This document shows, one piece after another, positions 5,255 to 15,977 of a stretch of 64,000 bases of DNA (positions within the stretch are counted from its first letter, which is position 1; every line of letters starts with the position of its first letter). The notes below the pieces were generated by a model. That model was not told the DNA's origin and ran no database searches. It saw only the letters and a program-made list of their open reading frames with translations. Both the position numbers and the translations under genes were made by a program. Origin of the DNA: Chitinophaga niabensis (lineage in GTDB: Bacteria > Bacteroidota > Bacteroidia > Chitinophagales > Chitinophagaceae). The DNA is taken from the NCBI RefSeq assembly GCF_039545795.1, contig NZ_CP154260.1, forward strand, positions 5,523,001 through 5,587,000, given 5' to 3'.

Positions 5255-6559
5255 TTATCTCTTTTTCCCTTTTTTAGCGGCGGCTTTTTTTGGAGCTGCT
5301 TTTGCTTTTGGTGCGGCCTTTTTAGCTGCTGCTTTTTTAGGAGCGGCTTTCTTTGGTGCTGCTTTCGCTTTTGCTTTAGGGGCTGCTTTTTTGGCAACTG
5401 CTTTTTTAGGTGCAGCTTTTTTAGCTACTGCCTTTTTTGGAGCGGCTTTTTTTGGAGCTGCTTTGGCTTTTGCTTTAGGGGCTGCTTTTTTGGCAACTGC
5501 TTTTTTAGGTGCAGCTTTTTTAGCTACTGCCTTTTTAGGGGCTGCTTTCTTTGGCGCTACTTTAGCTTTTGCTTTTGGTGCGGCTTTTTTAGCTACTGCT
5601 TTTTTAGGAGCGGCTTTCTTTGGTGCTGCTTTCGCTTTTGCTTTAGGGGCTGCTTTTTTAGCGGCTGTTTTAGCTTTTGCTTTGGGAGCAGTTTTAGCGG
5701 CGGCTTTCTTTGCTGCAGGTTTTGCAGCAGCTTTCTTAGCAGCTGGTTTGGCAGTGGCCTTTTTGGCTGCAGATTTTGCGGCGGCTTTTTGGGCAGCGGG
5801 TTTTGCTGCTGGTTTGGCTTTCGCTTTTGCTTTAGGGGCAGCGGCTGGTTTTGCTTCTTCTACTTTAGCAGGAGCAGCTGGTTTGACTTTAGGTTTGGCC
5901 ACACGTTTAGCTTTGGGCTTTGGTGCCGGAGCTGCTTCTGCAGTTGGTTCTGCGGCTTCCTCTTCTACTTTCGGAACCGGGTGTGGTTTGGGCGTAAAGG
6001 CGCGAACGGCTTTTTCTATGGGAGACATCTGGTCTGCAGCTTCGGCAGGGGCGTCAGCTTCTTCTTCAGCGGGTTCTGTTTTGAATTCAGCGCCATCGCC
6101 TTCCCAGAGTTCGATTATTTCTGCGGCGTGGTCGCCGTTGTTTGGTTTGTGGATGATGTGTGCGATCACTCCTTCTTCATCGATGAGGAAAGTGGTGCGG
6201 TGGGTACCGTCAAAGGTGCGGCCCATGAATTCTTTTTCGCCCCACACGCCATAATCGTTGAGGATGGCGTGGCTTTCGTCCACTAACAATGAGAAAGGCA
6301 GATTGTATTCGTCTGCGAATTTCCTGTGGCTTTTTTCGTCATCTTCGCTCACGCCCAGAACTACATAGCCTTTGCTCAGTAGACGGCTGTGGTGATCCCG
6401 CAGATTACAGGCCTGGGTAGTGCAGCCTGGGGTCATATCGTGCGGATAGAAGTACAGGATCACTTTCTTTCCTTTAAAATCAGCAAGCGATACGCTTTGA
6501 CCGTGCTGATCAATGGCTGTGAATGAAGGTGCTATATCCCCTTCTTTAAGATGTGTCAT
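5255..6559 (-). CDS. Peroxiredoxin (BCP/PrxQ type) fused to a histone H1-like Lys/Ala tail
   Basis: Residues 1-155 are a thioredoxin-dependent peroxiredoxin of the bacterioferritin-comigratory type: YFYPHDMTPGCTTQACNLRD gives peroxidatic Cys46 and resolving Cys51, with the typical five-residue spacing. Residues about 156-225 are an acidic, Pro/Ala/Glu-rich linker. Residues about 225-434 consist almost only of Ala, Lys and Pro in AAPKKAVAKK and AAPKAKAK blocks, like the C-terminal tail of histone H1 and bacterial Hc1/AlgP-type proteins. A normal BCP is about 150 aa, so the tail more than doubles the length. It lies 5 bp downstream of the M23 peptidase gene on the same strand. The tail predicts nucleoid binding, hence DNA-local peroxide removal (inference). 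Confidence 0.88.
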   Translation of the reverse strand: MTHLKEGDIAPSFTAIDQHGQSVSLADFKGKKVILYFYPHDMTPGCTTQACNLRDHHSRLLSKGYVVLGVSEDDEKSHRKFADEYNLPFSLLVDESHAILNDYGVWGEKEFMGRTFDGTHRTTFLIDEEGVIAHIIHKPNNGDHAAEIIELWEGDGAEFKTEPAEEEADAPAEAADQMSPIEKAVRAFTPKPHPVPKVEEEAAEPTAEAAPAPKPKAKRVAKPKVKPAAPAKVEEAKPAAAPKAKAKAKPAAKPAAQKAAAKSAAKKATAKPAAKKAAAKPAAKKAAAKTAPKAKAKTAAKKAAPKAKAKAAPKKAAPKKAVAKKAAPKAKAKVAPKKAAPKKAVAKKAAPKKAVAKKAAPKAKAKAAPKKAAPKKAVAKKAAPKKAVAKKAAPKAKAKAAPKKAAPKKAAAKKAAPKAKAAPKKAAAKKGKKR

Positions 6560-8789: not shown

Positions 8790-8792
8790 CAG

Positions 8793-9104
8793 AGACCTTG
8801 CCGCGCAGCAGAGGGCGGAGGTTTTTTCTTTTTGAGGAGGCGGGTGTTTTTATTTTGAGTTTTGAGGAGCGTGAGGTTGGTGGGTGTTTTTGTTTTAGGA
8901 GAAGAGTTTTTGCGGAGATCTTGCCGCGCAGCAGAGGGCGGAGGTTTTTTCTTTTTGAGGAGGAGGGTGTTTTTATTTTGGGTTTTGAGGAGCGTGAGGT
9001 TGGTGGGTGTTTTTGTTTTAGGAGAAGAGTTTTTGCGGAGACCTTGCCGCGCAGCAGAAGGCGGAGGTTTTTTCTTTTTGAGGAGGAGGGTGTTTTTATT
9101 TTAG
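8793..9104. repeat. 123-bp tandem repeat, about 2.5 copies, each with a terminator-like hairpin
   Basis: Copies begin at 8793, 8916 and 9039 (period 123 bp), differ by only a few bases, and the third stops early. Each begins with CCTTGCCGC ... GCGGAGG followed by TTTTTTCTTTTT, a bulged hairpin plus T-run typical of a terminator, then a G/T-rich stretch. Because 123 is divisible by three, a 103-codon frame stays open across it, but the strongly skewed composition (Phe/Arg/Glu) and lack of a good start argue against coding. The first unit directly follows the DUF4332 stop codon. Confidence 0.9.
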
Positions 9105-9524
9105 GATGAGGGTTTTCTTTTTAAGGGAGAGGTGCTTTTTTAAGGATGTTTATGGAGGATGTTTGTTTTTAAAGAGATGGCTGCCGGGGGATTTCCACAA
9201 GAAAGAGTTTTTTTGTAATAAGAAAATAAAAAGGCATTTTGCGGTTAGAAGAAGCAGGGTTTTGATCGTGTAAGAAGAATGAATGAATCCCATGCCGCAG
9301 GAAAAGCTAGTAATGAAGTCTTTTGTATTAAACGCATTAATTTTAGGATCCTATACCGTAGAATGTTGAGAAAAAAAGGCGCTGCCCAGTTGTGATTTGC
9401 TTTCAAATTTCAATCACACAACGGCTACGATCAAAGAACCAAACGCTGAAGTGAGTGACACAACGGCGGCTGAGCATTGAACAAGAGCTGGTTACCAAAT
9501 TGCATTTATTTCCTTAAAGATAAA
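9105..9524. other. Gene-free spacer with a CRISPR-repeat-like hairpin
   Basis: No supported gene. At 9389-9423 the + strand reads GTTGTGATTTGC-TTTCAAATT and then TCAATCACACAAC. This pairs on itself (GTTGTGATT with AATCACACAAC, 2-nt bulge) and starts like Bacteroidota type II-C CRISPR repeats as I remember them. Read on the minus strand, the hairpin is followed by a T7 run (9371-9377 as A), so it may be a small RNA end. The 10-mer ACACAACGGC occurs twice (9416-9425, 9458-9467). No cas genes are in the window. Confidence 0.35.
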
Positions 9525-9558
9525 ATGACCACAGGCTAAATAGGTCACCTGTGGCCAT
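9525..9558 (-). terminator. Terminator of the five-gene ABC/OmpA operon
   Basis: Read on the minus strand: ATGGCCACAGG / CCTGTGGTCAT, 11 bp with one wobble, 12-nt loop, followed by TTTTATC. It lies 20 bp past the stop of the ATPase gene. Confidence 0.85.
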
Positions 9559-9577
9559 TCTTCAAGTTTTTTTTGAC

Positions 9578-10381
9578 CTACAACTGTTCCTTAATTTCGT
9601 CGATCAGTTCGACAAACTTACGATCTGTGCGGATCTCCGGCTTCCAGGCCAGAGCCATCTCGCACAGGTCGTATTCTTTTTTAATGGTAGCCCCGGGTTT
9701 GCCTTCCTCATTACCCAGTACCCAAACGGTGTCTGCAACAGCTGTAGCGTTTTCTATATCGTGGCTCACAATGATAAGGGTATTATGCTCACTCAGCGTA
9801 GACACTTTCAACAGCAGTCTGATCACACGGTCCACCATCAGGATGTCCAGACCGGAGAAGGGTTCATCCAATAAAATGAACTTGTTGCCGGTGAGTACCT
9901 GCTGGATAATACTTACGCGCTGGCGCTGGCCACCACTGAGCTGTGCGGGGTATTTTTTCAGATGCTCCGTGAGTTCAAAGGTATTTGCGTAATCTTCTAT
10001 GATCCGGCGTTTTTCATCTTCGGTGAGTTTCACTTCTCCATTGTCCAGGCCTATCCTGAGGTTCTGATATATGGTGCGGTGATTGAAAAGAATGTAATTC
10101 TGCGGCACGATACCTACCTCGCCTGCTTTTACGGGATGCTGGTCTTCGCCGATCCTTACTATTCCTTCGGTTGGTTTGATCAGACCCGACAGGGTTTTAA
10201 ACAGCTGTGTTTTACCAATACCACTCCTTCCGATCAAAGCCACTACCTGGCCTTGTTCCAGGCCTTCGCGGTGAATATCCTTGATGCTGAAATTGATATC
10301 GCGGAGGATCTTTTTCTCTCCGTATTGCAGATGAATGTTCTCGGCACTCAGCAATACTTTGTTCTTTGAATAGTTGTTCAT
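9578..10381 (-). CDS. ABC transporter ATP-binding protein (NitT/TauT-like)
   Basis: Cytoplasmic ATPase subunit, 267 aa. Walker A GRSGIGKT at 51-58, Q-loop GIVPQNY, signature LSGGQRQR, Walker B FILLDEP, and switch His in IVSHD are all intact, so it should hydrolyse ATP. Sequence style is closest to ATPases of nitrate/sulfonate/taurine-type importers. It is the last gene of a five-gene minus-strand operon; its ATG overlaps the stop codon of the permease by one base, which implies translational coupling and a physical complex with that permease. The C-terminal about 40 residues (CEMALAWKPEIRTDRKFVELIDEIKEQL) extend past the usual core. Substrate unknown. Confidence 0.9.
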   Translation of the reverse strand: MNNYSKNKVLLSAENIHLQYGEKKILRDINFSIKDIHREGLEQGQVVALIGRSGIGKTQLFKTLSGLIKPTEGIVRIGEDQHPVKAGEVGIVPQNYILFNHRTIYQNLRIGLDNGEVKLTEDEKRRIIEDYANTFELTEHLKKYPAQLSGGQRQRVSIIQQVLTGNKFILLDEPFSGLDILMVDRVIRLLLKVSTLSEHNTLIIVSHDIENATAVADTVWVLGNEEGKPGATIKKEYDLCEMALAWKPEIRTDRKFVELIDEIKEQL

Positions 10382-11163
10382 CAGCGGGTTTCCAGTTTAG
10401 TGTAAGGAAATAACCAGTGCCGGAAGAGGCCCAGTATGAAATCAAAAAAGATCCCCAATGCAAAGATGATCAGGAGTGTGGCGAATACGATATCCAATTG
10501 CACGTATTTGTTTGCTTTGATGAGCATTACGCCCAACCCACCTTCGCTCATGCTCAAACCTTCTACAGATGTGATCATCAGCCATGCGATAGCAAAGTTC
10601 TGGCGCATTACCTCAAACACCTGGTCGAGACGGCCGATGATGATCACCTCCCATAATTGCTGCCATTTGTTCATCCTTAAAGTGGTACATAATTCAAACT
10701 CCTGTTTGTTGATGTTCTCTATCACAGACAGCAGGGAGGTAACAAAGAAGGGCACAATACCAAAGATCAGCAGGCTCAGCTTTAATTGATGACCGTTGCT
10801 GGTGAGTAGTGTGAACAGGAAGATGAGACCGGTTAATGTGAGATACCGGCACTTTACGATAAAACGTGCTATAGGCTGAAACACGGGCACGATGGACAGA
10901 TAACTGATGAACAGGGCGATCACTATCGAAAAGAACATTCCTTTGATGGTGAGCGTTAAACTTGCAAAGAGGTTATCTATAAAATCCGGATAGCTGAAAA
11001 TGGTGCCGATAGCTGAAAACACCTTTGCAGGCGTTGGTATCAGGCCTCCTCCACTCAACTGCCAGAGCAATACTGCCATGATCACTTCTGCGATCACGAG
11101 CAGCATCATGGCTCGTTTATCCAGTATACGGAGCGGTTCAAAAAATGCTTTTATTTTATCCAT
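10381..11163 (-). CDS. ABC transporter permease (binding-protein-dependent type)
   Basis: Inner-membrane permease of 260 aa. The ATG at 11163 is chosen because the upstream open frame overlaps the preceding gene. About six hydrophobic segments are visible, e.g. MMLLVIAEVIMAVLLW, IKGMFFSIVIALFISYLSIVPVF, LSLLIFGIVPFFVTSLLSVI and the C-terminal ATLLIIFALGIFFDFILGLF. The cytoplasmic coupling (EAA-like) loop reads EFELCTTLRMNKWQQLWEV. It lies between the substrate-binding/OmpA gene (58-bp gap) and the ATPase (1-base overlap). This makes it an importer-style transporter whose only visible substrate-binding partner is the OmpA fusion protein. Confidence 0.88.
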   Translation of the reverse strand: MDKIKAFFEPLRILDKRAMMLLVIAEVIMAVLLWQLSGGGLIPTPAKVFSAIGTIFSYPDFIDNLFASLTLTIKGMFFSIVIALFISYLSIVPVFQPIARFIVKCRYLTLTGLIFLFTLLTSNGHQLKLSLLIFGIVPFFVTSLLSVIENINKQEFELCTTLRMNKWQQLWEVIIIGRLDQVFEVMRQNFAIAWLMITSVEGLSMSEGGLGVMLIKANKYVQLDIVFATLLIIFALGIFFDFILGLFRHWLFPYTKLETR

Positions 11164-11221
11164 GCCATTTGGTGATTGCAAAGGCCAGCACTTTTGCAAG
11201 CGCTGACCTTTGATATGAACA

Positions 11222-12988
11222 TTAGTTACCCAATACGATCTGTACGCGGCGGTTTTGTGCACGGCCTTCCGCAGTTGCATTTTCTGCTATTGGTTTGGCT
11301 GCACCAAAACCTTTGGATTCCAGCCTTGCAGCAGCTAAACCTTTGCTTAAGAGGTAAGCTTTTACAGACTCTGCACGGTCGTTGGAGAGTTTGAGGTTGG
11401 CGGTTTCGTTACCAACATTGTCTGTGTGACCATAGATACCAAGTTTCAGCCCTTCTGCCACCACGGCGCTTTTCAGGATATCGTCCAGTGTGCTGTAAGA
11501 TTCAGGTCTGATCACGGCGCTGCCGGTTTCAAACTGTACCTGTACAGATCTGGAAGACACTTCTTTGGTGATCTCTGCAGCGTACTGCTCTTTGATAGCA
11601 GTACCAGTGAGTAGTTCCGGGTGATTGCTCACTACGGAAGCCAGGAAGGATTTATCTACTACCTTGTTGTACACAGGGTATGTGGGTACCAGTTCAGGAT
11701 ACATCTTTACGAGGATGTCGCCGAAGGTGCCGTATACGATCTTGTAACGGTCCAGTTTATCATCTCCGAGGCCGAACATGTTAGCAGCGTCTGCTAAGTT
11801 GAAGGCCATGGAACCGCCCAATGCCAGGTTGATGCCCTGCGCGTCTTTTTCTTCCACACCGTTGTAATATTTCAGCCAGTATGCACCGTTCTGTTCGTTG
11901 TATACTTTGGCGGAAATGTCTGCCGCAAATTGCTTGGCATCTGTGAAAGAACGTACCTGATCTCCGGCTTGTGCGAGTGCCATGATCAGGTTCTCAATGT
12001 CCGTGCGGTGGTCATTGGCGAACTTCCTGATGGTGATAGAGATGTTCGGCATCTGGGATGCGTACTCTCTTGTAGTGGCGATGTTGATCAGACCACCTTT
12101 TTTCTGGGCGATGTTTACGTCACCCGGCGTCCAGGTGGCAACACCGTCTACACCAACAGTGGTGTCTTTTGCAATCTTCTTACCATTTACTACGAGCTTG
12201 CGGCCTTCTGTGTAACCGGCAATGTATTTATTGGCGGCATCCAGGAAGTCGTTCGCAGCGATCAGGTTGATGGCGTTACGATCGTAAGTGGTTTCATCCG
12301 GGTTTACGCGCAGGCCATTGTCGCCAGCCCATTTCACGAGGATGTTCATGTCACCGTCCCTCATTACGCAGGATACTGTTTTACCCAGTGCGTTTTTAGG
12401 ATCTACTTTCCATTCTGCGGGGCCCATCAGTTTGTCTTCACCATAACTTTTACCCATGGTGTAAAAAGCAACGGGCTGGTATTCAGGGCCCAGTGGCTCC
12501 AGTTCTTTTGCCAGTGCGGCAAAGAACATGGGCATACCATCTCCCATGAAGGAAGCGAACACGCCGGGGGTGTTGGGATTTGATTTATAGTCCTGTGCAA
12601 ACTTCACCACGTCTGCAATGGATTTGTTACAATCGTCCTGGCGAACTATTTCGATCTCCAGGTTCGCTTTATCGACCAGGGAGCCTTTGGTAGTTTTCGG
12701 GCCACCATTGGCATACATCAATGGAAACTGGGAGTTCCAGGCCATGATCTTCCAGCTGATCCTGGTTCCGCCGTTTGCAGATTCTTCTGCGCCGGGGAGT
12801 GGCAGTTTTGCAGCATTGCTGCTTAAAGATGCTTCGGGCGCATCCGGCAGTGCAACTTTACCGATTTCGGCAGCCGCTTTTGCTTCCTGGGGGCGCTTGT
12901 CCCACCATAATACTTTACCAGCATAGATTGCTCCGAGGAGGAGAACGATACCCAGGACTTTACCCCCTGGTTTTACTTTAATTGCCAT
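11222..12988 (-). CDS. ABC substrate-binding domain fused to peptidoglycan-binding OmpA domain
   Basis: 588 aa. Residues about 11-30 are a single N-terminal membrane helix or uncleaved signal (KVLGIVLLLGAIYAGKVLWW). Residues about 75-460 look like a type II periplasmic binding protein of the phosphate/NMT1 kind (ISWKIMAWNSQFPLMYANGG, VFASFMGDG, TVSCVMRDGDMNILVKW). Residues about 470-588 are an OmpA-C domain with the diaminopimelate-binding signature (YGHTDNVG ... LKLSNDRAESVKAYL ... GFG ... NRRVQIVL). The protein could therefore bridge the inner membrane and the cell wall while presenting a ligand-binding domain to the permease encoded next. Fusions of this kind are known to annotation pipelines as phosphate-ABC/OmpA proteins but I know of no defined function. 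Confidence 0.85.
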   Translation of the reverse strand: MAIKVKPGGKVLGIVLLLGAIYAGKVLWWDKRPQEAKAAAEIGKVALPDAPEASLSSNAAKLPLPGAEESANGGTRISWKIMAWNSQFPLMYANGGPKTTKGSLVDKANLEIEIVRQDDCNKSIADVVKFAQDYKSNPNTPGVFASFMGDGMPMFFAALAKELEPLGPEYQPVAFYTMGKSYGEDKLMGPAEWKVDPKNALGKTVSCVMRDGDMNILVKWAGDNGLRVNPDETTYDRNAINLIAANDFLDAANKYIAGYTEGRKLVVNGKKIAKDTTVGVDGVATWTPGDVNIAQKKGGLINIATTREYASQMPNISITIRKFANDHRTDIENLIMALAQAGDQVRSFTDAKQFAADISAKVYNEQNGAYWLKYYNGVEEKDAQGINLALGGSMAFNLADAANMFGLGDDKLDRYKIVYGTFGDILVKMYPELVPTYPVYNKVVDKSFLASVVSNHPELLTGTAIKEQYAAEITKEVSSRSVQVQFETGSAVIRPESYSTLDDILKSAVVAEGLKLGIYGHTDNVGNETANLKLSNDRAESVKAYLLSKGLAAARLESKGFGAAKPIAENATAEGRAQNRRVQIVLGN

Positions 12989-13088
12989 GTTATAAATATT
13001 TATAGGTTTAAGAATACACTTCGTTTATTCATACACGTTAGTATACGGTGCATACGTATGGCTATCCATGCATTTATGTTGATGGTTA

Positions 13089-14075
13089 TCAGCTCAGGAG
13101 ATCGTTATAATTATCTTTTGGTAATTGTCCGGGCTTACGTGGTGTGGTATTGGGTTCCCACTTTTTCACGTCCAGTTTGAATTCCGTATCGGGATTGAAG
13201 GATTCCAGCATAGTGAGTCCTTGCAGCTCATAAGTTGCGTTATCGAGGTCGATAGAGCGCATGAAGTCTGTAGAGTAGCTGATGGCTTTTTTCATACTGC
13301 TCAACTTGGTGGCAATATCTTCTTTGAGGAACTCCATAGATTGTTCCACCATCAGTTTCTTTTCGGGATCACCGTTAAAGATCTTCAATGCAGAGCTGAG
13401 GGCTTTGTTACCGGAAGAAACAGATTTGTAGAGATCTTTTTTCAGTTCCAGTTCATTACGTGCGTCTTCAATCATGTATCCGCTGTTCTTGTGTACTTTG
13501 GTGAGGTAGTCACCGATACGGGCAAGGTTATCGCGGATGGGTGTGAGTTGCATGATGTATTCTTTGATCCGGGCAATGTGGCGCGTAGCATTTCCCAGCT
13601 CAGGCAGCATGTTATTGCTCTGTGCGGCTTTTGCGCGGCTCATCAGTTGTGCCATGTCTTTTTCCTTTTCATCGATCTTCAGGTCGATCTTCTCTTTCTG
13701 GGCATCCACTTCGATGGATTGCTTGTAGAGTTTTTCGCGTTGTTCTTCCATATCGCCGATATAATCTTCGGCAATGAGGAAGGGGTCCAGTTCGATCACC
13801 ACACCTACGAGTTTTTTCATGAGCCATTCATACAGGTAGAATAAGCTCAGGCGCAGTTTGCGGTGTGTTACTGTATAGAGGAATAAACCAAGGCATACCA
13901 ATGCGATGCCGAAGTTGAGTGTGTTCCATACCACATTTGTGAGGATGGGGATCACATAGTAACCGATCAGCACCAATAAACCGAGTCCGATAACGATACC
14001 GAATTTGCCACCAGGGCGGTTCCAGTAGGATTTCAGTTTCTGGCCTGATTCTGCAGGGAAGAATTGAGTGTCCAT
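13089..14075 (-). CDS. Two-helix membrane protein with long coiled coil (unknown function)
   Basis: 328 aa, family not recognised. Two adjacent transmembrane helices at about residues 25-47 and 50-68 (FGIVIGLGLLVLIGYYVIPIL; FGIALVCLGLFLYTV) are followed by a basic stretch and a long charged alpha-helical region (about 110-300), rich in Glu/Lys/Gln heptads, e.g. EEQREKLYKQSIEVDAQKEKID and LELKKDLYKSVSSGNKALSS. Topology suggests both termini in the cytoplasm. The last about 30 residues are Pro/Lys-rich. It starts 2 bp after the preceding coiled-coil gene and is followed 100 bp later by the substrate-binding/OmpA gene. Possible role: membrane scaffold of the transporter system (inference). Coiled-coil TelA-type proteins are an alternative comparison. 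Confidence 0.8.
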   Translation of the reverse strand: MDTQFFPAESGQKLKSYWNRPGGKFGIVIGLGLLVLIGYYVIPILTNVVWNTLNFGIALVCLGLFLYTVTHRKLRLSLFYLYEWLMKKLVGVVIELDPFLIAEDYIGDMEEQREKLYKQSIEVDAQKEKIDLKIDEKEKDMAQLMSRAKAAQSNNMLPELGNATRHIARIKEYIMQLTPIRDNLARIGDYLTKVHKNSGYMIEDARNELELKKDLYKSVSSGNKALSSALKIFNGDPEKKLMVEQSMEFLKEDIATKLSSMKKAISYSTDFMRSIDLDNATYELQGLTMLESFNPDTEFKLDVKKWEPNTTPRKPGQLPKDNYNDLLS

Positions 14076-14077
14076 AA

Positions 14078-14734
14078 TTAAAGGGTTGTTTGAATGAATT
14101 GAATGTCTGACTGAATTTTAGTGATCATGGCCTGGCAGGCTACATCATACCCCTGCCGGCTGCTGGCAATCTTTTGCTCCTGTTCGGATACCTGGCCTTT
14201 CAGTTCTTTCATACTGGTTTGGGCACTGGTAATTTCCTGTGTGAGCTGTTGGATCTTCTGCGAATGTTCAGCGATGGTTTTTTCCAGGTCAGCAATTTGC
14301 TGTACTCTTCCCTGGATCTCCTGTTTCGCTTTATCATCAGCGGCTTTGTCGAATTCATCCCGGTCTTTTTCCACCATGCTTTTATACAGGGTAGCGGTTT
14401 CCAGCAGTTTATCCTTTGTGAGGCCCTGGATACTGAGGGTGGCAAAAACTGCCCCTATACGTGCTTTGTCGTCTGGCACGTGCGTTTCCAGTGTTTCCAT
14501 CATCTTCCAGAACTCGAAATAATCGGGTCCGGGCAGATTACTGCTTTCAAATAACCGGGAGAAGTGTTGCTCGAACTTGTCGAGTTCTTCAGCCGTGATA
14601 TTCGCGGTGGCGGTTTTTGGGCCGCTCAGCGGAAATTTTTGGGCAAGGGAATCCCCTCCGGGCTTGCCAGTCTGTGAAGCATCGGGGTCAAATTCAACGA
14701 AAATGCCCAACGCTTTCCTAAGAAAGTTTGTCAT
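14078..14734 (-). CDS. Cytoplasmic coiled-coil protein, first gene of ABC/OmpA operon
   Basis: 218 aa, soluble, no signal peptide, no family recognised. The N-terminal half contains a compact helical region (TAEELDKFEQHFSRLFESSNLPGPDYFEFWKMMETLETHVPDDKARIGAVFATLS), and residues about 120-218 form a continuous coiled coil (IADLEKTIAEHSQKIQQLTQEITSAQTSMKELKGQVSEQEQKIAS). The spacing to the next gene is 2 bp, so the two coiled-coil proteins are likely made together and may form a heteromer. Upstream lies a 340-bp spacer with a perfect palindrome at 14798-14814. Function unknown. Confidence 0.8.
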   Translation of the reverse strand: MTNFLRKALGIFVEFDPDASQTGKPGGDSLAQKFPLSGPKTATANITAEELDKFEQHFSRLFESSNLPGPDYFEFWKMMETLETHVPDDKARIGAVFATLSIQGLTKDKLLETATLYKSMVEKDRDEFDKAADDKAKQEIQGRVQQIADLEKTIAEHSQKIQQLTQEITSAQTSMKELKGQVSEQEQKIASSRQGYDVACQAMITKIQSDIQFIQTTL

Positions 14735-15074
14735 TGCTTGTGTGTGTAAAGGGTAAATTGATTGTTGGAAAAAAGAAGCACACTAAGAACTCGTGCAGTT
14801 GTTTGTGAAACAACCAGAGTAAAAAGAAATGAATATGTGTGTACTACATTGCGGTATTGATTGAAGACGTAAAATTACACATTTTTCCACATATGGCAAT
14901 TTTTGGGGCTGCGTGGGGGCTGCGTTTAAATTGAAATCCGTTAACTACAGTGGCTTTTAGTCATATATCCATTATTCCGCAAGCCTGCGTGTTCGAAAAT
15001 TTGCATTCCGGGGGCACTGGAATTAACGGTTAACTATTTTTTTTCGCTTACTTTAGCCAACGCAAAAACTATCC
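14735..15074. promoter_or_regulatory. Divergent intergenic region with palindrome GTTGTTT-gtg-AAACAAC
   Basis: A perfect 7-bp inverted repeat with a 3-nt centre lies at 14798-14814, about 65 bp upstream of the coiled-coil operon start, and could be an operator. Facing right, TACTTTAG near 15050, shortly before gldA, is a one-mismatch -7 box. A direct repeat GGGGCTGCGT / GGGGCTGCGT lies near 14906-14925. No gene is visible. Confidence 0.4.
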
Positions 15075-15977
15075 ATGTCCATCCTTGTAACAGAACTTAG
15101 TAAGCTGTATGGCCAGCAAAAAGCAGTGGACGGCATCTCTTTCGGGCTGCAGAAAGGTGAGATTGCAGGCTTTTTAGGTCCTAATGGCGCCGGCAAATCC
15201 ACTACCATGAAGATCATTACCGGCTACCTCCCTCCCAGTGCGGGACAGGTAAGCGTTTGCGGTTTTGATGTGGTGAAGGAGCCGATGGAAGTGAGGAAGC
15301 GCGTGGGTTACCTCCCGGAAGCCAATCCCCTTTACCCGGATATGTATATACGGGAGTTCCTGGAATTCATGGCGGGTATGCATCAACTGGGGAAGATCTC
15401 TGGTACCCGCATCACAGAAATGATAGGCCTGACGGGACTTACACCGGAAAAGCATAAAAAGATAGGAGCCCTTAGTAAAGGCTACAAACAACGTGTGGGC
15501 CTGGCGCAGGCGCTTTTGCATGATCCGGAAATACTGATCCTGGATGAACCTACTTCCGGGCTGGATCCCAATCAGTTAGCGGAGATCCGGAACCTGATCA
15601 GGAACCTGGGAGAAAATAAAACGGTGATGTTATCCACCCATATTATGCAGGAAGTGGAGGCGATGTGCAGCAGGGTGATCATTATCAATAAGGGCAATAT
15701 TATAGCAGACGGGCCGCTGAGTTCCCTTCAGCAGGGTTCGCAGGGTTATATTCAGGTTACTTTTGGGGAAGCTGTTGCGTTGGAAGAGCTGGAACAATTA
15801 CCCGGCGTATCCCGCGCAGTGGCTGCTGAGGGTCATATCTGGCGATTATACACGACAGATGCAGAAACCGTCCGCAAAAACCTGCTTCAATTCTCTTTGA
15901 TTAATAACCGGAACATCCTTTCTTTGCAGAGCAATTCGCAAAGCCTGGAAGATGTGTTTAAGGAGTTGACAAATTAG
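15075..15977 (+). CDS. gldA: Gliding-motility-type ABC transporter ATPase GldA
   Basis: 300 aa ABC ATPase. Walker A GPNGAGKST, signature LSKGYKQR (the SKG variant of exporter ATPases), Walker B ILILDEPTSGLDP, switch His in LSTHIMQEVEAMCSR. The N-terminus SILVTELSKLYGQQKAVDGISFGLQKGEI closely follows Flavobacterium GldA in spacing and motifs, and a C-terminal domain of about 80 aa is present as in that family. Known role: energises the GldA-GldF-GldG exporter needed for gliding in flavobacteria. gldF and gldG are not adjacent here, as is also the case in Flavobacterium. Because the DrrA/NatA-like family is broad, a generic exporter ATPase is the alternative. Confidence 0.75.
   Translation: MSILVTELSKLYGQQKAVDGISFGLQKGEIAGFLGPNGAGKSTTMKIITGYLPPSAGQVSVCGFDVVKEPMEVRKRVGYLPEANPLYPDMYIREFLEFMAGMHQLGKISGTRITEMIGLTGLTPEKHKKIGALSKGYKQRVGLAQALLHDPEILILDEPTSGLDPNQLAEIRNLIRNLGENKTVMLSTHIMQEVEAMCSRVIIINKGNIIADGPLSSLQQGSQGYIQVTFGEAVALEELEQLPGVSRAVAAEGHIWRLYTTDAETVRKNLLQFSLINNRNILSLQSNSQSLEDVFKELTN

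Follow-up and report, generated by a model that had tools for sequence, protein, structure and literature searches.

The window analysed here, a 64,000-nucleotide stretch of the Chitinophaga niabensis genome (contig NZ_CP154260.1, positions 5,523,001 to 5,587,000), covers 5.52-5.59 Mb of a 7.2-Mb single-contig genome and contains an operon of five co-directional open reading frames (ORFs) on the minus strand (9578-14734). We refer to these genes as A to E in their 5' to 3' order, and to the whole group as the cassette. Gene A (14078..14734) encodes a 218-aa soluble protein, in which a variable N-terminal part is followed by a coiled coil, and belongs to no recognised family. Gene B (13089..14075) encodes a 328-aa membrane protein with a probable N-terminal transmembrane (TM) hairpin and long antiparallel helices, which resembles PspA/Vipp1 of the ESCRT-III superfamily. 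The 588-aa product of gene C (11222..12988) is predicted to combine a TM anchor (residues 11-29), a substrate-binding domain of the NMT1/TauA type (approximately residues 72-455) and an OmpA peptidoglycan-binding domain (approximately residues 478-588). Gene D (10381..11163) encodes a 260-aa permease of the ABC importer type (BPD_transp_1); its start was taken as the ATG at 11163, while the alternative upstream ATG in the ORF listing (11280) falls inside C. Gene E (9578..10381) encodes a 267-aa ABC ATPase with the usual ATPase motifs. The spacing is 2 bp between A and B, 100 bp between B and C, and 58 bp between C and D, and genes D and E overlap by 1 bp. These three gaps, the overlap and the overall coordinates had been given in an initial annotation made from the sequence alone, and all of them proved exact when the ORFs were checked. 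The same annotation placed a terminator after gene E. The 73 nt that follow this gene (9505..9577, minus strand) indeed form a strong hairpin by folding energy (-26.9 kcal/mol, z -5.5), which is plausible as a terminator, but a consensus scan of 9300-15100 lists none on the minus strand, the promoters and terminators found by that scan being only as numerous as in shuffled sequence.

The five genes form a real conserved unit that moves together. In a first count, hidden Markov models (HMMs) for each gene were built from 5-7 bacterial sequences (the window and loci L001-L007) and run over the ORFs of 144 loci. The full order A-B-C-D-E was found in 62 of the 86 bacterial loci with C, which are mostly from Hymenobacter and hence not independent, and in 42 of the 54 viral-collection loci with C. 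A 63rd bacterial locus carries all five genes in the order A-B-C-E-D, and C never occurred alone among the loci of this count. With iterated HMMs, the full ordered cassette was identified in 60 of 71 viral-collection loci, a set that includes near-copies; a contig end truncates nine of the remaining 11, and no gene A was found in locus L014. Within the Chitinophagaceae, C occurs at 26 places in 194 genomes, and 19 of the 20 new places that we took have the full ordered cassette. Almost every uncut locus retains A and B, also where the genes are separated by inserts as long as 4.6 kb. Since flanking genes are common only to small groups of two or three Chitinophagaceae loci, the cassette occupies many places and yet stays together. 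The grouping of the five genes is therefore far beyond chance, and the co-conserved single operon proposed in the initial annotation is borne out, the genes being not scattered at the homologous loci.

The distribution of the cassette in bacteria is patchy. Of the genomes scanned, 8 of 392 from the phylum, 23 of 194 from the family and 23 of 60 from the genus have gene C (own genome included). Two deep types of C occur in the family, with 67-83% and 35-38% identity to the binding domain of the window, respectively, and both types are found together in three genomes. In the window, the cassette adjoins genes that were named gldA and enolase by similarity and by eye. The whole cassette lies at this site in the carriers L145, L146 and L171, and gldA is located about 2 kb from the C match in all seven Chitinophaga carriers examined for the site. 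Six of 13 non-carriers were fetched; in five of them the flanks adjoin with no cassette gene left, and gldA stands directly beside a DUF4332/helix-hairpin-helix gene or a peptidase gene. In the sixth (L170), only gldA, enolase and the next gene are visible. Weak matches of the gene E HMM at the non-carrier site overlap gldA. Thus, in the genomes examined, the cassette is present or absent as a whole at one Chitinophaga site. In one profile scan of general genome contigs, in which the best 80 of 239 relatives were kept, Hymenobacter filled the list because the first row was of that type. Two binding-domain queries gave no match against 72,556 plasmid records, and a plasmid query that included the OmpA domain gave only OmpA-domain matches among the 60 of 482 records listed.

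In addition to bacterial genomes, the binding domain of C was identified on 56 IMG/VR contigs, on 14 further IMG/VR contigs reached with phage-type seeds, and on an uncultured phage genome of 462 kb (GenBank LR756500.1). Viral hallmarks (Terminase_6N, Gp23 capsid or Terminase_6C) were detected on 25 of 58 distinct records tested, with 13 short or duplicate records left out and not every family run on every record. Among the records of at least 200 kb, Terminase_6N is present in 15 of 24 (14 of 15 in one batch and one of nine in the other); the remaining nine have no Terminase_6C either, and their viral status is that of the IMG/VR classification. A search for Terminase_6C on 26 records lacking Terminase_6N gave one match. 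In one of the nine records without a terminase match (L183), the cassette lies beside genes for a RecD-like helicase, a calcineurin-like phosphoesterase and a clamp-loader-like ATPase of DNA polymerase III, a neighbourhood that is compatible with a phage replication region without proving one. One contig of the viral collection is probably bacterial DNA: L009 (IMGVR_UViG_2627853892_000001), which also counts among the 71 loci above, encodes a C nearly identical to that of Hymenobacter mucosus and is placed there in the tree. The wide occurrence of the cassette on huge-phage contigs suggests that phages, too, use genes A to E.

The phage copies are under purifying selection. The ratio of nonsynonymous to synonymous substitution rates (dN/dS) ranges from 0.016 to 0.26 in seven phage pairs for the genes measured, and from 0.04 to 0.33 in two bacterial pairs where computable; as dS often exceeds 1, these values are rough. 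In a tree of 77 C proteins, built by a quick method and having several long branches, three bacterial groups stand among phage lineages: a Flavobacteriaceae-type group (L005-L007, so labelled from their neighbour genes), Hymenobacter, and Chitinophagaceae/Cytophagales. The tree needs five changes between phage and bacterium labels, at least three of which are forced by well-supported branches, and it gives no direction of transfer. C of the window shares 61% identity with the phage protein of L010 and 68% with that of L011.

The product of gene C has a single hydrophobic segment (residues 11-29). Its OmpA domain matches PF00691 with an E-value of 9.4e-24 and 84.1 bits, against a gathering score of 27.2. 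A conserved Asp and Arg hold diaminopimelate in OmpA-like domains, and D523 and R538 of C are invariant in 52 rows of the alignment. Both domains of C have invariant residues across these 52 bacterial and phage sequences. The nearest folds to the binding domain are TauA, CmpA, SsuA and NrtA, with THI5 and PqqT also alike, and some phage-type homologues match PF09084. Sequence and model thus indicate that C is a binding domain of the TauA/SsuA/CmpA type that has a membrane anchor and, for binding to peptidoglycan, an OmpA domain. On the nearest folds a phosphate importer was rejected, an identity that the initial annotation had named as one that would refute its idea of a new system. Gene D matches PF00528 (E-value 8.6e-10), with weak SaoP/TauC/SsuC matches far under the cut-off, and gene E matches PF00005 (6.7e-28). 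Among 126 distinct members of the E family, any given ATPase motif is kept by 118-121 (Walker A by 119, LSGGQ and Walker B by 121 each). Three features of a type I importer of the TauABC/SsuABC class, namely the binding fold, the BPD_transp_1 permease and an intact ATPase, are therefore present. In that class, the binding protein is a single-domain protein, either free or lipid-anchored, and it docks on the permease when loaded and stimulates the ATPase. C departs from this form by its TM segment and its C-terminal OmpA domain. The initial reading from the sequence, in which a binding protein anchored to the wall belongs to an importer-like ABC unit, is in this way supported, as is the domain architecture as a whole.

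The other two proteins are helical. Homologues of gene A hold the first position of the cassette in both bacteria and phages. Pfam gives only scattered coiled-coil matches for A (25 of 51 families listed in the alignment scan), and a hydrophobicity scan found no hydrophobic segment in A or E. Protein B has a hydrophobic stretch at residues 27-62, which is long enough for two helices, and is without a paralogue in its own genome. The PspA_IM30 family matches nine of 53 members of the B family at an E-value of 0.01 or better (best 1.3e-8), the window protein itself scoring 0.004. Its predicted model has a predicted local distance difference test (pLDDT) of 82-94 across approximately residues 101-210, and Vipp1 is the top match in Foldseek. 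Some relatives of B are named '5-bromo-4-chloroindolyl phosphate...' or 'PspA/IM30' in the source records. Sequence and predicted structure point to B as a probable membrane-anchored helical protein of the PspA/Vipp1-like, ESCRT-III type. The view that the first two proteins lack a recognised family thus holds for A but gives way for B. The Pfam scans of B, of A (to the extent given above) and of ten neighbour or cassette proteins showed neither TelA nor XpaC among their families, and no genome-wide search for TelA was made; an association with TelA-type genes, tentatively mentioned in the initial annotation, found no support in these scans.

Clustering of the flanking genes gave no further conserved neighbour comparable to A to E; the next cluster comprises 19 loci, and the 14 that were listed are all viral. 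A Band_7/SPFH gene lies directly 3' of E in two Chitinophagaceae loci (L152, 4895-6814; L157, 5276-7192), and in three phage loci (L024-L026, with L025 and L026 being the same sequence) D is separated from E by a Band_7 gene. The attachment of PspA to the membrane in Bacillus subtilis is reported to depend on an SPFH protein as the link (PMC8581546). A TAXI-like binding protein occurs in the flanks of eight viral loci, with NMT1_3 shown for L056 (14717-15607). Matches to PP2C and weak matches to VWA_2 were found near the phage cassette in L011, L017 and L022 (one member scanned per cluster); this PP2C/VWA-like pair recalls the TerY-P stress modules. An AAA+ ATPase gene, which we take to be CbbX/SpoVK-like, is located 3' of E in L005-L007 (for example L007, 12946-14352), directly so in L005 and L007 and with one gene between in L006. 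As a sixth part of the cassette this gene was rejected, as its HMM matches only these three loci among the 144 and none of 20 further ones, and no AAA+ gene was recognised by eye among the ORFs of the window near the operon. These neighbours (Band_7, TAXI-like, PP2C/VWA_2 and AAA) point to membrane stress and are too rare to define the system. Two other features of the window were recorded. A tandem repeat of 123 bp (8792-9102; 2.5 copies, 97% matches) lies just 3' of the cassette. At 5255-6559 (minus strand), a 434-aa peroxiredoxin (AhpC-TSA) has a long Lys/Ala/Pro-repeat tail resembling a histone-type DNA-binding tail, and its match in related genomes spans only about 150-300 residues.

Because C is anchored in the membrane as well as to the wall, and is nearly always accompanied by a membrane-anchored PspA-like protein and a coiled coil, we propose that A to E form a ligand-triggered machine for envelope maintenance or membrane repair that is also used by huge phages, and give this reading a probability of about 0.43. 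It draws further on the constancy of the unit and its all-or-none presence at one site, on the likeness of B to PspA/Vipp1, on the conserved domains of C and motifs of E, on the Band_7/SPFH genes near a few loci as partners in membrane repair, and on the low dN/dS of the phage copies. In the mechanism that we infer, the N-terminal helix of C would hold the protein in the inner membrane, with the TauA/SsuA-type ligand domain in the periplasm, and its OmpA domain would grip the peptidoglycan. Binding of a small conserved ligand would let C dock on the permease D and start ATP hydrolysis by E in the manner of a type I importer. The cytoplasmic helices of B, with A as partner, would form polymers or rearrange next to the transporter at the inner membrane, and would stabilise, repair or bend the membrane. 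In huge phages, the cassette might preserve the inner membrane of the host cell through an infection that is long and disturbs the envelope.

Several observations weigh against this proposal. Protein B of the window reaches only 17.2 bits against PspA/IM30 (PF04012), under the gathering score of 33.9, and its model is middling as a whole (mean pLDDT 66.9, predicted template modelling score 0.41). No Foldseek match of B reaches an E-value below 0.001, and in VIA BAR domains equal or surpass PspA as matches to the model, I-BAR domains reaching Z 13.2 against 10.5 for PspA, so that its fold match could reflect a common helical arrangement. An ordinary PspA is encoded separately in the same genome, SPFH neighbours are rare, and conservation is unequal, the mean column identity being 22% for A, 27% for B and 42% for C. 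The physical coupling of B and A to D and E is a step that we only infer. Finally, two loci, L156 of the Chitinophagaceae and the viral L190, carry C, D and E with neither A nor B detected, which means that C-D-E may work alone. Two genes after E in L190 were considered as displaced B and A and rejected by the HMMs, the A candidate giving an E-value of 0.13 and no B being found.

These two loci speak for a plain importer and slightly lowered our confidence in the maintenance machine. As the main rival explanation, though in our judgement a doubtful one, the cassette would be a high-affinity importer of one small solute of the taurine/sulfonate, bicarbonate, thiamine-precursor or PQQ-like class, with the OmpA domain keeping the binding protein near the wall, A and B serving as chaperone or scaffold, and the phage copy being an auxiliary metabolic cassette. 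Such a role suits the fold neighbours of C and the PF09084 matches, the importer features kept by D and E, and the better conservation of C, D and E relative to A and B. It sits less well with the persistence of A and B in nearly all uncut loci despite the long inserts, with a binding protein tethered at both ends, and with flanks that widely share no further gene. The huge-phage distribution would also fit a device of phage competition, which would close the inner membrane to incoming DNA of rival phages (superinfection exclusion) and which bacteria would keep as a defence; the patchy occurrence in the genus (23/60) and family (23/194) and the several label changes in the C tree agree with it. 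We nevertheless consider this quite improbable, given that the PADLOC matches were judged generic for an ABC ATPase, an OmpA domain and a coiled coil (the ATPase gave the strongest of them, mad3 at 9e-24), that no defence-island neighbours were recognised by eye, and that the Chitinophaga site adjoins enolase and gldA. A device that senses or transmits force across membrane and wall, with the ABC motor pulling on the peptidoglycan through C, appears the least probable; a force-sensing role had been suggested in the initial annotation. The order of TM segment, periplasmic domain and OmpA domain recalls stators of the MotB/ZorB type, and PADLOC gave ZorB matches in or next to the OmpA part; an intact and conserved TauA-like fold would be needless in a mere tether, however, and D is a permease of the importer type.

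A bolder form of the envelope-maintenance proposal, which we regard as unlikely, would make the cassette a mobile ESCRT-III-like remodelling machine, in which a ligand-gated, peptidoglycan-anchored ABC transporter replaces the Vps4-type AAA+ ATPase as energy source and trigger. Huge phages would be its main reservoir and would control the host inner membrane with it, and Bacteroidota would have acquired it from phages, or traded it with them, several times. If the envelope-maintenance reading is right, a complete machine for membrane maintenance, in which an ESCRT-III-like protein works together with a transporter and a wall anchor, is common to bacteria and viruses, and some of the many genes of huge phages that have no assignment are accounted for. 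How PspA-like proteins are driven without an AAA+ ATPase, a question raised in a passage of PMC11237479, would then become directly testable.

The closest precedent is found in passages of Ravi et al. 2024 (PMC11237479), according to which homologues of PspA and TM-anchored Snf7, together with an AAA+ ATPase, may share operons with an ABC ATPase, a permease and a PBPB-OmpA protein (example OGG56892.1). As an untested remark, the authors suggest membrane remodelling linked with solute transport, and for neighbourhoods in Bacteroidetes they point to a third gene, one for a coiled coil, which may be our gene A. Both operons combine a TM-anchored PspA/Snf7-like protein, an ABC ATPase, a permease and a solute- and peptidoglycan-binding protein, while the AAA+ gene of the published operon has no counterpart recognised in the operon of the window. 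Likened by description, OGG56892.1 itself not being compared, our cassette is probably the same kind of operon, and the five-gene association, presented as new in the initial annotation, was to judge from these passages already in print for bacteria. The passages concerned contain neither the carriage by phages nor the binding domain of the TauA type, both of which are found here; the words 'bacteriophage' and 'virus' are absent from that text, and 'viral' is confined to a figure legend and a reference. The literature searched, which excluded subscription journals and most preprints, gave no published account of the distribution on huge phages, of the all-or-none presence or of the family of the binding domain. 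The operon is thus partly known in bacteria, and its carriage by huge phages is apparently undescribed. Among huge phages, the Jug phages carry a PspA-like gene adjoining terD, as reported in passages of PMC12363816; a PspA-like protein on a huge-phage genome is common to both cases, whereas OmpA, ABC transporters and substrate binding are absent from that text.

Other known systems resemble parts of the cassette. With PspA/Vipp1 (IM30) and the ESCRT-III superfamily, B appears to share a helical hairpin, its soluble part is similar in sequence, and it differs in its N-terminal membrane segment, its Pfam score under the cut-off and the separate presence of a true PspA in the genome. In the fold of the binding domain and in the types of permease and ATPase, the cassette resembles the TauABC, SsuABC and NrtABCD-CmpABCD importers; unlike these, it has a binding domain that is membrane-anchored and fused to OmpA, and it includes two helical partners in the unit.

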